Assembly: GCF_018274385.1 (NCBI RefSeq)
Contig: NZ_JAAFYZ010000103.1
Location: 1-33,816, forward strand
Direction: 5' to 3'
Length of the DNA stretch: 33,816 nt
Source of the DNA: Catenulispora pinistramenti
GTDB lineage: Bacteria; Actinomycetota; Actinomycetes; Streptomycetales; Catenulisporaceae
Made by a program: the position numbers and the translations under genes. The notes under the pieces were generated by a model. It did no database searches and had not been told where the DNA came from. It worked only from the letters and a program-made list of their open reading frames with translations. Below are positions 23,322 to 33,377 of this stretch, in pieces; the first letter of the stretch is position 1; every line of letters begins with the position of its first letter.

Positions 23322-23406
23322 GTCTCCGGTCTAGGCGAAGCCCGGCAACAGCCGAGTCACCGAGGCTGTTACCCGGTTGTTGACACCGGGCCCTGATACT
23401 TGGGTG

Positions 23407-24587
23407 ATGTCCGTCCCGTGGTACCCGCGCAGGATCCGGATGCGGTTGACGCTGCTCTACGCGACGCTCTTCCTGGCCTCCGGCATAGTCCTGCTCGCCG
23501 TCGCGCTGTATCTGGTGTTCCGCAGCCCGATCCTGGTCACGTTCGATCCGGCGCCGCCGTCCCCGCCGTCACCGGTGCCGGGCATGTCCGATGTGCTGCG
23601 CGTCTTCCGGCCGGCCACCGGCACGGTCAGTCCCACCTGGGCCACGGTGCGCGCGGCCGCCGCGCAGTCGGCCGGGGTGCTGGCGGCGATGGCCGTGATG
23701 TCGGCCCTGCTGGGCTGGATCGTCGCCGGCCGGGTTCTCAGTCCTCTGCGGACCATGACGTTCCGGACGCGCAGGATCTCCGAGCAGAACCTGCACGAAC
23801 GCCTGGCGCTGGCCGGTCCGCGCGACGAGATGACCGAACTGGCCACCACGATCGACGGCCTGCTCGGCCGATTGGAAGCGGCTTTCCAGGCGCAGCGCCG
23901 ATTCATCGCCAACGCCTCCCACGAGTTGCGGACCCCGCTGGCCATGATGCGCACCTCCCTGGACGTCGCGGTCGCCAAGCCGGCGCGGCCGCGCGAAGTG
24001 GACGTGCTCGCGGGAAGCTGCGCGAGGGCCTGGACGCCGCGGACCGGTTGCTGGAGGGGCTGCTGTTGTTGGCCCGGACCCAGAACGTCGAGCGGATGGA
24101 GACCTCGGAGGTGTCGTTGCCAGACCTGCTCGACGTCGCGCTCCGAGCCCGCACGGCCGCGATCGAGGACAAGCACCTTTCGGTGGAACGGGAGGCGGGA
24201 GAGGCACTCTACCGGGGCAACGGCACGCTGTTGGCGAGTCTCGTGGACAACCTCGTGGACAACGCGATCCACCACAACGAGCCCGGCGGCTGGGTGCGCG
24301 CGCAGGTCATGACATCCCGCGACGAGGACGAGGACGAGGACGAGGACGACCGCACCAGCACCGGCCTGCGTGCTCGCATCATCGTCGAGAACGGCGGTCC
24401 GGTCCTGACCCAGGCCGAAGTGGACCTGCTCGGCCAACCGTTCCAGCGCCTCGGCCCGCAGCGCACGTCGCAGCCGGGCACCGGCCTGGGCCTGTCCATC
24501 GTCGCGGCGATCGTCGCGGTGCATCATGGCAGGCTCCTGCTACGGGCCCGGGACGAGGGCGGACTGCGCGCGGAGGTGGAGCTGTGA
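23407..24587 (+). pseudogene. Sensor histidine kinase, broken by a one-base frameshift
   Basis: Membrane two-component sensor. Helix 1 is near residues 13-38, a short outer loop follows, helix 2 is near 88-108, then a HAMP-like linker and the dimerisation box RRFIANASHELRTPLA with phospho-His172. After residue about 203 (REVDVLAG) the frame is lost: the rest (KLREGLDAADRLLEGLLLLARTQ, N box LVDNLVDNAIHHN, G box GTGLGLSIV) continues in the next frame to a TGA at 24585-24587. One base is missing in the GCGGG run at 24010-24014. All motifs are otherwise intact, so this is a very recent mutation or a sequencing error. A GATACT at 23395-23400 places a leaderless start at the ATG. It overlaps the response regulator by four bases. 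Confidence 0.88.
24321..24350 (+). repeat. GACGAG hexanucleotide tract
   Basis: Four GACGAG units plus a fifth variant (GACGAC) at 24321-24350 encode an Asp/Glu run between the N and G boxes of the kinase ATP-binding domain. It is prone to in-frame slippage. Confidence 0.85.
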
Positions 24588-28378: not shown

Positions 28379-28708
28379 AACCGGCTTCAACCACGTGTTA
28401 AGCGATATCCACGATCGCCCTTCATGATTTCTTCAGAAAGCGCGCCGCAGGTCAGGGAGTCGCGCGTGAAAGGCTACATACGACTTACTCACGGGGTGTA
28501 AAGTGCTGCGCGAGATAGGCTGTTTCCATTGGGAAATCGCCGTCGAGCTCGCTGAGGCGCCGGCTCCATCTTGTCGTGCGCGTGCGTGCCCGGGCGGTTT
28601 CACTCGATGTGACCGACAGGGCCCGCATCGTTCACGTTAACAAGCTGTGACCTCGGTTCTCGTCGGGTGAGACTCCCCATCTCCTATGCCGCGTAGTAGA
28701 TTCACAGT
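28379..28708. other. Intergenic region upstream of the recombinase-like gene
   Basis: About 330 bases, less GC-rich at the left. I see no supported gene; a 25-codon frame at 28424 lacks a ribosome site. It has a small TTTCC-ATTG-GGAAA palindrome (28523-28535). TAGATT at 28697-28702 is a -10-like box seven bases before the GTG at 28709, which suggests a leaderless transcript for the next gene. Confidence 0.55.
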
Positions 28709-30073
28709 GTGGTTGACATGCGAGAACCGAATTCCGCGGTGGGTATCTACTGCTGCGTACCGCACATCGACGACGATGATCAGAGCACTGTCGACGTCCG
28801 CGAGCTCAGGTGCCGCGAGTACGCGCGGGCGCGGCGGCTGGCCGTGGCGCCCGCGGCGGTGCAGGCCGACGCCGTGCGCACGGTGTGGAAGGCCAAGGGC
28901 GTCAAGCCGGGGTGGATCGCGACGCTGGCCGCCGTGGAGCGCCGGAAGGTCGACGACCTGATCCTGTACGCGCCCGGCTCGCTGCTCCGGCACCGGGCGC
29001 ACGACCTGGTGCGGCTGCTGACCGTCTGCGAGCGCAACGGGATCAGGCTGCACAGCGTGGGTGATGAGTGGAACCTGGCCGACCCGGCGCAGCGCCGGAC
29101 GATGACCGACCGCGCGAGCGCCGCGTGGCGCTCCGCGCAGGCCGTCTCCCGGGCGTCCCGGGCCGCGCACCGCGGCGCCGCACTGGCCGGCCGGCCGCAC
29201 GGCGGCGGCCGCCGCGCCTTCGGCTACGAGTCGGGCATGAGCGCCGTGGTCCCGGCCGAGTCCAAGGTGATCCGCGAGGTCTTCTCACGCTTCCTCGAAG
29301 GCGAGACGCTGCGCGCGATCGCCTTCGACCTGAACGATCGCAACGTGCCCACCGCGCTGGGCTCGGCGTGGACGGTCGGCGGCGTCGGCCGCATCCTCGA
29401 CGCCCCGCGCTACGCCGGCATCCGCGTCTTCCGCGGCCAGGTCCGCGCCGACGACGGCGGCTATCTGCTCGGGGCGTGGGAGCCGTGCGTCAGCGTCGAG
29501 GAGTGGGAGCGGGTGCGCGCGCTGCGTGCCGACCACGCGCCTCGGCCCAACGGGGTGCGCAACGGCAGTGAGCGCTCGGGGTATCTGCTGACCGGCTTGG
29601 TCGAGTGCATGGCTTGCGGGCACAGCATGGTCGGCTCGGTCGTCGGCGGCTACCGCATGTACGCCTGCGCCTCGACGCGCAACCGGCCGCCGGAGGAGTG
29701 CGCGCGCTCGATCGGGGCGACGTCGTTCGAGGTGCATGTGCAGCAGGACGCGGTGCGGATTCTGCAGGAGTGGGACGCCGAGCGTGTCGCGGCGCTGCCG
29801 ATGGTGGGCAACCGCCGGCCCGAGGTGCGGCCCGGCGATGTCGAGCACGCGGCCTTCGGGGATATCCACGGTGGGGTGGTGGTCCGCTCGGCTTCGGCCG
29901 TGGACGGGATCGTGACCGGGCCGGACGCCGGGTTGGATTGGCCGCGCGTGCCGTTGCGCCGCCGGGCCGAGGTGCTGCGCTTCCTGTACACGGTGATCCG
30001 GGTCGGGCCGAAGACGACGAGCCGGGGGGTTTTTGATCCGGGGCGGATTGCTTTGGTGCCGCATCCTTTGTAG
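28709..30073 (+). CDS. Serine recombinase-like protein lacking the catalytic serine
   Basis: 454-residue protein with the layout of a large serine recombinase: resolvase-like N-domain (about 10-150), recombinase domain (GRPHGGGRRAFGYE through YAGIRVFRG), and a zinc ribbon with ECMACGHSMVG and later YACAS and Cys pairs. The catalytic 'Y.R.S' motif of the family reads IYCCVP (13-18): Arg is Cys16 and Ser is Pro18. The 'DRL.R' motif reads GSLLR, so one active-site Arg is also lost. The reading frame is intact with native codon use, so it is not a decayed gene in the usual sense. It may bind DNA without cutting. It starts at GTG 28709, probably leaderless. I see no att sites, no cargo genes and no phage genes beside it. 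Confidence 0.85.
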   Translation: MVDMREPNSAVGIYCCVPHIDDDDQSTVDVRELRCREYARARRLAVAPAAVQADAVRTVWKAKGVKPGWIATLAAVERRKVDDLILYAPGSLLRHRAHDLVRLLTVCERNGIRLHSVGDEWNLADPAQRRTMTDRASAAWRSAQAVSRASRAAHRGAALAGRPHGGGRRAFGYESGMSAVVPAESKVIREVFSRFLEGETLRAIAFDLNDRNVPTALGSAWTVGGVGRILDAPRYAGIRVFRGQVRADDGGYLLGAWEPCVSVEEWERVRALRADHAPRPNGVRNGSERSGYLLTGLVECMACGHSMVGSVVGGYRMYACASTRNRPPEECARSIGATSFEVHVQQDAVRILQEWDAERVAALPMVGNRRPEVRPGDVEHAAFGDIHGGVVVRSASAVDGIVTGPDAGLDWPRVPLRRRAEVLRFLYTVIRVGPKTTSRGVFDPGRIALVPHPL

Positions 30074-32415: not shown

Positions 32416-32451
32416 TACCTAGGATCCCTAAAGCCTAGGCCTCCTAGGTAT
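32415..32451. promoter_or_regulatory. CCTAGG palindrome cluster before the ABC ATPase
   Basis: ATACCTAGGA (32415-32424) and TCCTAGGTAT (32442-32451) are perfect 10 bp arms; between them lies a third palindrome GCCTAGGC (32433-32440). The right arm overlaps the ATPase start codon and the left arm touches the MFS stop. Such sites often bind TetR- or PadR-type repressors of ABC exporters; no such gene is adjacent. Confidence 0.65.
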
Positions 32452-32905
32452 GACGATGATCGCTGCTGCCGGCCTCGCCAAGAGCTACGGCGCCGAGCCG
32501 AACCGCGTGCCCGCACTGCGCGGCGTGGACGTCGCGATCCCGGAGGGCACCTTCACCGCGGTGACGGGTCCTTCGGGATCGGGCAAGTCCACGCCGCTGC
32601 ACTGCCTGTCGGGACTGGATACCGTGGATGCCGGGACGGTGCGCATCGGCGACACCGAGATCACGGCCCTGCCGGAGCGCGCACTGACCCGGCTGCGGCG
32701 CGAGCGGATCGGCTTCGTGTTCCAGGCGTTCAACCTGCTGCCGACCCTCACCGCCGGAGAGAACATCGTCCTGCCCCTGGAACTCACCGGCCGCCGCCCC
32801 GACGCGGAGCACTTCGAAGCGGTGGTCACCCTCCTCGGCCTGGCCGACCGCCTGGAACACCGGCCCGCGCAGCTGTCCGGCGGCCAGGCGCAGCGCGTCG
32901 CGATC
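32450..32905 (+). pseudogene. ABC transporter ATP-binding protein (LolD-like), truncated
   Basis: N-terminal 152 residues of a LolD/MacB-class ATPase. Walker A is GPSGSGKST (40-48), followed by Pro where Leu is usual (KSTPLH). The Q-loop is FVFQAFNLLP (Gln92), and the ABC signature LSGGQAQR is at 142-149. Likeness stops after QRVAI: the expected ARAL..., Walker B (DEPTGALD) and H-loop are absent in all frames up to the window end. The frame stays open to 33154, but the added residues are repeat-derived (Gly/Trp/Cys-rich). It cannot hydrolyse ATP as it stands. The break at about 32906 may be a true rearrangement or an assembly error close to the contig end. FtsX-type partners normally follow; none does here. 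Confidence 0.85.
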
Positions 32906-33377
32906 AGAACCGAGATATGGCGCCCGGGTGGCGACGATGCTCTCGCTGGTGCTGTATCAGGCAACGTTTGCCCGGGAGCTTTCGCTTTGCTCGGGAGCTC
33001 GCGATGTGGTTCGCGATGTGCCGGTCGGCGGGCGGGATTCGTCGGCGGGTGGAGTTTGCTGGGGGCTGGAGTTTGCTGGGGGCTGGAGTTTGTGGGCCGG
33101 GTTGCGGTTGGTCTGTGGTTTTCAAAGCATTTTACGGCCTTCGGTCATGGTTGAGCCGGTTCGGGGTTCGGGTCGGCGAGTCTGTGTTTCGGCTGCCCGT
33201 TCGCGCGTTCACAACCCCGCCGCACCTCAGGCCTCTTCAACTCCAGTTAGCCAGTGCAAGATCAAGAACTGTGATGAAGAGCCGGGCCTCCGGCGGGCCT
33301 CGGCAACCTCAGGGAAACTAGCGCGGTTCCCTCGGGTGGCTGATCTAGTCTCAGCGGCTGCGGTTTGTGAGGTGGTG
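32906..33377. other. Non-coding, repeat-rich sequence after the ATPase break
   Basis: About 470 bases without a supported gene. It includes a 17 bp tandem repeat (TGGAGTTTGCTGGGGGC at 33050-33066 and 33067-33083, with a partial third copy) and short CGCGATGTG direct repeats near 33000-33020. AGGGAA/TTCCCT arms at 33311-33332 could form a small hairpin. Base use differs from the genes: more T and G runs on this strand. Confidence 0.6.

Follow-up and report, generated by a model that had tools for sequence, protein, structure and literature searches.

A Catenulispora family of serine integrases without their catalytic residues, probably retained as putative DNA-binding proteins

The gene described here encodes a serine-recombinase-like protein that has lost the active site of the large serine integrases, and its best explanation, which we judge moderately probable, is that a dead integrase was domesticated and retained, under host regulation, for putative DNA binding. 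The window, by which we mean the whole stretch of DNA analyzed, is the entire contig C6 (33816 bases) within an 11.46-Mb genome. Comparison with live relatives shows that an integrase ancestor lost three things: the nucleophilic serine, the DR pair in DRLxR, and the coiled coil used for synapsis. The dead gene was then duplicated and maintained by purifying selection. The dead protein would most likely dimerize through its catalytic fold and may bind specific DNA via its linker, its recombinase domain, and its zinc ribbon, neither cutting nor synapsing it. Two of the resulting clades, A and B, would be expressed from probable leaderless promoters under a BlaI/MecI-type palindrome, and clade C stands at the end of an ABC-transporter operon carrying an iron-box-like element.

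A broader interpretation, which we put forward tentatively and hold to be possible rather than probable, is that these proteins make up a new family of host regulators that recognize specific sequences, or of proteins that bind chromosomal sites, reading DNA as an integrase does but neither cutting nor synapsing it; in this family the paralogues would have separate inputs and may act together with the linked He_PIG proteins. If true, it would mean separate regulatory inputs, BlaI-type for clades A and B and iron-box-like for clade C.

The lost active site and the remaining domains

The features of the gene and its promoter region are as follows:

28679..28701 (no strand assigned): palindrome ATCTCCTA-N7-TAGTAGAT, operator-like, probably of BlaI/MecI type
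28697..28702 (+): TAGATT, candidate -10 box found by eye, 6 nt ahead of the start codon (leaderless)
28709..30073 (+): clade A dead serine-recombinase-like gene, 454 aa, GTG start
28748..28762 (+): YCCVP replacing YCRIS, catalytic Ser to Pro and Arg to Cys (residues 14-18)
28973..28990 (+): PGSLLR replacing xDRLxR (residues 89-94)
29198..29215 (+): HGGGRR linker from helix E to the recombinase domain (residues 164-169)
29252..29530 (+): recombinase (DNA-binding) domain, PF07508 (Pfam)
29585..29707 (+): zinc ribbon, PF13408, with Cys 300, 303, 320, and 331 present
29765..29905 (+): short low-confidence stretch where live relatives carry the coiled coil (residues 353-399)

The one named protein match found comes from Catenulispora pinisilvae NH11 (97% identity across the protein). 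The reading frame is undamaged, as stated in a preliminary description made from the letters of the DNA, with 454 codons, a GTG start, and no interruption. This start is backed by an ATG at the matching codon in two orthologues (G025 and G027) and by a constant spacing of 69 nt between the palindrome and the Tyr codon in 9/9 clade A loci. Rfam returned zero matches close to the gene.

According to the same description, the catalytic Ser is replaced by Pro, the active-site Arg is also replaced, and GSLLR stands in place of DRLxR. Each of these substitutions was borne out in an alignment of 40 relatives, comprising 21 dead rows and 19 live rows (3 from the genus and 16 from outside), read with the residue numbering and roles of gamma-delta resolvase as a guide. 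Pro occupies the catalytic position in 21/21 dead rows, and Ser in 19/19 live rows. The Arg of YxRxS, present in 19/19 live rows, is Cys in 20 of the 21 dead rows and Arg in the remaining one. The D and the first R of DRLxR occur in 19/19 live and 0/21 dead rows, and the last R is retained in 20/21 dead rows. A search for homologues sharing the Pro had been suggested as a check against a lone mutant; since the substitution is common to the whole family, a chance lesion is ruled out.

Another serine occupying the active site had been named as an observation that would overturn this reading. The tabulated active-site loop columns of the dead rows contain no invariant Ser or Thr that could be a replacement nucleophile, and position 26 varies among S, T, L, A, and V. 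That the protein is still a recombinase with another nucleophile is therefore very improbable: the intact fold speaks for it, nothing further having been found, and against it stand these variable columns, the loss of the Arg and of the DR pair in nearly all or all dead rows, and the missing coiled coil.

In Pfam searches, the gene product matched PF07508 (Recombinase, 66.6 bits) and PF13408 (Zn_ribbon_recom, 27.3 bits), both exceeding the cut-off. The resolvase domain PF00239 is weak in the dead protein (24.8 bits, beginning at residue 21), whereas in two live relatives it scores 69.3 and 73.2 bits and is their top-scoring domain. All six residues of the HGGGRR linker are invariant in the 21/21 aligned dead rows, and from passages on the A118 integrase (PMC3783163) we infer that this linker contacts DNA. 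The same passages describe the A118 recombinase domain as reading attP half-site bases near positions 9-11, the zinc domain as reading positions 16-24 of the half-site, and the coiled coil as mediating synapsis (PMC3783163).

It is the coiled coil that qualifies the earlier statement that the domains look whole, which stood for the recombinase domain and the zinc ribbon. The segment measures 42-50 residues in 20/21 dead rows (47 in the window protein) vs 73-76 in the 19 live rows; the exception is the clade A orthologue in G025, with 85 residues. An AlphaFold2 model of the dead protein, built from the 40 rows (pLDDT 80.8, pTM 0.47), is without the helix pair (369-391 and 397-417) found in the model of the live sister (pLDDT 82.8, pTM 0.43), but the corresponding region of the dead model lies mostly below pLDDT 50, so the loss is not proven by the model alone.

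In the model of the dead protein, the fold of the large serine recombinases is retained, with a resolvase-type N domain and a long helix E (126-159). The N domain aligned with the TP901-1 catalytic domain (3bvp) in VIA-align with a Z of 12.2 (rmsd 3.3, 129 aligned), and the top Foldseek matches in the PDB were the Bxb1, SPbeta YokA, phiC31, and A118 integrases (entries including 9dxf and 4kis), at low whole-length TM-scores (at most 0.36 among the first ten matches). Alignment with Bxb1 (9iu2) gave a Z of 16.3 across 375 residues with an rmsd of 21.4, which we read as reflecting domain movement in the model. Compared with an active large serine recombinase, the protein thus has the N-domain fold with the long helix E, PF07508, and PF13408; the nucleophilic Ser, the Arg of YxRxS, DRLxR, and the coiled coil all fail, so by its sequence the label of an active recombinase does not appear to apply.

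Distribution, phylogeny, and selection

The genome of the window holds two further dead paralogues (45-47% identity; contigs C578 and C223) and one live relative (34-39% identity; C260). Clade A, to which the window gene belongs, was found in 9/10 Catenulispora genomes, the exception being G021, a 77% complete assembly in which the dead family was not found at all. Each of the nine also holds one or two dead paralogues; clade B occurs in 7, clade C in 5, and clade D, with the motif YCRTP, in 2 of the 10 genomes. The clade A gene of G027 is split into two pieces by contig ends, and its N-terminal piece likewise has Pro at the Ser position.

Beyond the genus, the dead type was not encountered. 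An order-wide search of 391 genomes gave matches at E <= 1e-20 in 41, 32 of them outside the genus; the 22 of these 32 that were inspected all carried the live motif YCR[IF]S. G007 holds a truncated live-type copy; in a family-level search, the active-site reading covered the matches other than those of G013 and two more in G007. With a profile of the dead proteins, only G000 reached E <= 1e-60 among 396 genomes of the phylum (the best four or fewer candidates per genome being scored). Plasmids yielded one relative (27% identity) of the live type YCRIS, viral contigs one distant match, and phages 96 records, compared by identity and coverage, all below 60% identity and none spanning 80% of the query. 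Among the genomes searched, the dead family was thus found only in Catenulispora. None of the literature matches listed (titles and abstracts, with subscription papers mostly outside them) describes an inactive or domesticated serine recombinase family.

In a tree of 33 rows, the dead rows form one clade (100/100), and the live Catenulispora integrase S adjoins it (95/83), so that, by this tree, the dead proteins have a single origin beside S. Clade D branches first, then A, then B with C; the root was drawn at the midpoint, and D and other long branches were flagged by the program as possibly misplaced. Because D retains the Arg, the change from Ser to Pro may have preceded that from Arg to Cys.

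The conservation checks proposed at the outset, dN/dS and synteny, both indicated retention. Pairwise Nei-Gojobori dN/dS for clade A was 0.099, 0.161, 0.150, 0.137, 0.126, and 0.287 (the last against G025), that is, purifying selection at 0.10-0.16 in five of six pairs; the N domain is under constraint as well, at 0.069-0.210 for five pairs and 0.392 against G025. The values were 0.088-0.120 for four clade B pairs, 0.280-0.290 for three clade C pairs, and 0.304 for S_G000/S_G023, the only informative live pair. Selection is therefore strong in A and B, whereas clade C, at about 0.28 vs 0.30, is not set apart from the live integrase. Between paralogues A and B, identity is 57% in the recombinase domain, 54% in the zinc ribbon, and 36% in the N domain. 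A hydrolase gene lies upstream of clade A in 7/9 loci and an MFS gene downstream in 8/9, the window counted (the former was not found beside clade A in G025 or G027, the latter in G017), and these flanks mark clade A as a settled chromosomal gene.

All 23 dead copies, including the one lying in two pieces at contig ends, are free of internal stops. A decaying pseudogene or lone mutant, an idea to which the lost active-site residues and a short remnant of another dead-type copy in G025 and G027 might lend some color, is hardly credible in view of these open frames, the Pro common to all aligned rows, and dN/dS far below 1; conservation among orthologues refutes it. The remnant itself comprises 44 residues (profile positions 406-449) at G025:C488:87005-87136 and G027:C689:49376-49507, about 4 kb from clade D, and means that dead copies do decay. 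Clade C has been cleanly lost in G017, and none was found in G003, so at least this clade is dispensable. At the clade D locus, the sequences of G025 and G027 agree at every one of 15,116 bases, yet the two genomes differ in their clade A genes; a contaminant common to both or a recent transfer is a possible cause.

The preliminary description had supposed that the protein was kept for DNA binding or as an accessory to an active recombinase. Its retention is upheld by the purifying selection, which, together with the strictly conserved linker, recombinase domain, and zinc ribbon, fits a role in putative DNA binding. The accessory role is weakly supported at best, as the close live sister S occurs in 3/10 genus genomes vs 9/10 for the dead family, and the coiled coil is missing. 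A related alternative is a dominant-negative anti-integrase that occupies the attachment sites of live elements or forms dead heterodimers, thereby blocking integration. The retained N-domain fold and DNA-binding domains, the absence of the synaptic coiled coil, and the presence of close live relatives in the genus are compatible with such a function; we nevertheless regard it as unlikely, since three genomes hold both the dead family and the live sister, whose identity is 35% overall and 49% in the recombinase domain.

The live S proteins of G000 and G005 are identical across the aligned protein, but their flanks differ. S adjoins a sigma-70 family gene in G005 (by Pfam) and, judging from similar flanks, in the other two genomes. 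At L072 7603-8253, and also in L071 and L070, a gene of the sigma-70 family precedes the live sister integrase, with PF08281 and PF04542 detected in L072. The segment common to the three S genomes starts near ggcac[ga]ctcaaagg; to its left, each genome has sigma-like sequence that has diverged.

The promoter palindrome and the neighboring genes

The palindrome ends 7 nt ahead of the start codon. Its right arm shares bases with TAGATT, which follows the -10 rule TANNNT and is possibly the -10 box of a leaderless promoter. The pattern ATCTMCTA-N7-TAGTAGAT stands at 9/9 clade A promoters with 0 mismatches and at 7/7 clade B promoters with 0-2, zero-mismatch counts that are partly built in because the pattern was derived from these promoters; its position, which both paralogues share and which lies 69-70 nt upstream of the Tyr codon in the 9 A and 4 B loci measured, is not built in. 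Shuffles of the window gave a mean of 0.01 sites at up to 3 mismatches. With up to 2 mismatches allowed, a reversed control pattern was found 0-4 times per genome; the true pattern also has other sites, with 1-2 mismatches, elsewhere in the genomes. Between the window and G025, the palindrome is identical at 22/23 bases, and between the window and G027 at 21/23, whereas the four preceding 23-base blocks reach only 4-15/23. Farther upstream, a second conserved block (28475-28520), an imperfect inverted repeat by eye, is found in 7/9 clade A loci, the exceptions being G025 and G027.

In 7/7 loci, a BlaI/MecI-type gene lies divergent from clade B, identified by PF03965 in the tested copies (G003 included) and by sequence likeness at the other B loci. 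The core of the palindrome, CTA-N7-TAG, occurs within 200 nt upstream of 7/11 BlaI-family genes of G003 and G025, or 6/10 when only those without a clade B neighbor are counted; mononucleotide shuffles gave a mean of 0.17 and a maximum of 3 in 1000, and every other CTA/TAG spacing from 0 to 15 was found at 0-2 BlaI genes. Among 169 genes of twelve loci, clade B BlaI genes included, 11 have CTA-N7-TAG, 10 of them at A or B promoters. The recurrence of this geometry upstream of BlaI-family genes and over the clade A promoter, as expected of a BlaI/MecI regulon, makes the palindrome most likely a BlaI-type operator, the identity of the repressor being our inference. Two observations speak against it: G025 keeps the palindrome but is without clade B and its BlaI gene, so there the clade A repressor must be another protein, and CTA-N7-TAG is absent upstream of the two BlaI genes that most resemble the one beside clade B (78%).

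Autoregulation was demoted to a rival once CTA-N7-TAG proved to be a geometry upstream of BlaI-family genes. In this alternative, the dead recombinases would themselves bind the palindrome as their operator, so that A and B repress themselves and each other. The zero-mismatch sites in 10 genomes all lie at A or B promoters (from which the pattern was derived), their position before the start is constant in both paralogues, and the clade A palindrome is retained in the two genomes in which searches found clade A but no clade B, G025 and G027, of which G025 also gave no match for B's BlaI gene. We consider autoregulation rather unlikely, given that CTA-N7-TAG precedes most BlaI-family genes tested and hardly appears at other spacings, that G009 has one and G023 two single-mismatch sites outside the A and B loci, upstream of the same kind of gene, and that clade B has its divergent BlaI-type gene at every locus. 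In addition, the 23-bp palindrome is centered on a base pair, whereas integrase sites, in the passages of PMC3783163, are centered on a dinucleotide.

The setting of clade C is of another kind. By gene order, and by Pfam at the G011 locus, clade C closes an ABC-transporter operon (L063-L067), and the box TTAGGCANNCCTAA, which we take to resemble an iron box, stands over this operon in 4/4 loci with a retained transporter. At the G005 locus (L064), gene calling gave no transporter gene, and the TTAGGCANNCCTAA box lies a short way ahead of clade C, an arrangement that possibly arises from misassembly. The best NCBIfam names for the transporter parts are of 2-aminoethylphosphonate types and fall below the cut-off, so iron is at most a candidate substrate. 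Clade D loci differ from the clade C pattern, and D_G025 shows TTAGGTAAGCCTTACC by eye.

Large proteins with a He_PIG domain, which was tested on one copy, adjoin the B and C loci (L057-L061 and L063-L067) and by eye appear to be secreted. CTA-N7-TAG lies within 410 bases around the start in 10/10 He_PIG copies downstream of B or C and in 0/8 other copies, one of which follows clade A in G025; the copies form orthologous groups and are not independent, and more than one kind of site is involved. In Pfam, the tested copy matched He_PIG and, below the cut-off, InhA-like MAM; in NCBIfam it matched NTTRR-F1, also below the cut-off. A label of S53 peptidases for these proteins was dropped, as Pfam and NCBIfam showed no peptidase in that copy.

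Known systems and other features of the window

The large serine recombinases phiC31, Bxb1, A118, and SPbeta YokA share with the dead family the domain order, N-domain fold, PF07508, and zinc ribbon, but the dead family is without the catalytic Ser and Arg, the DR of DRLxR, and the coiled coil. Its nearest tree rows, at 29-35% identity, are the live integrases of the order with YCR[IF]S (L026-L046) and the sister S (L070-L072), which, unlike the dead family, have the full active site and the coiled coil; S adjoins a sigma-factor gene, whereas the dead genes occupy fixed loci.

Tn3/gamma-delta resolvase represses its own promoters and is likewise a serine recombinase doubling as a DNA-binding regulator; it is, however, catalytically active, whereas the dead family is without the catalytic residues. 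TldR, a dead TnpB, is also a mobile-element enzyme kept as a DNA-binding regulator, but the likeness is by analogy only, TldR being unrelated and RNA-guided. A passage of PMC13418256 describes it as an RNA-guided transcription factor of phages. The retention of mobile-element enzymes as regulators is a growing theme, to which a conserved, multi-copy dead serine integrase would add a further way for such an enzyme to become a host protein that binds DNA. The family would also offer a naturally non-cutting integrase scaffold with a findable recognition site.

Several other features were noted in the window. A sensor histidine kinase gene (23377-24587) seems split across two overlapping frames, with a frameshift near 24000 by eye, and contains a GACGAG hexamer repeat (24321-24349) that encodes an Asp/Glu run. 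An ABC transporter ATPase (32450-33154) appears truncated, its Pfam match stopping at residue 153, and its tail lies near a 17-base tandem repeat (33050-33096). At the left end of the contig, positions 187-337 hold a tandem repeat array of 25/50-base units.
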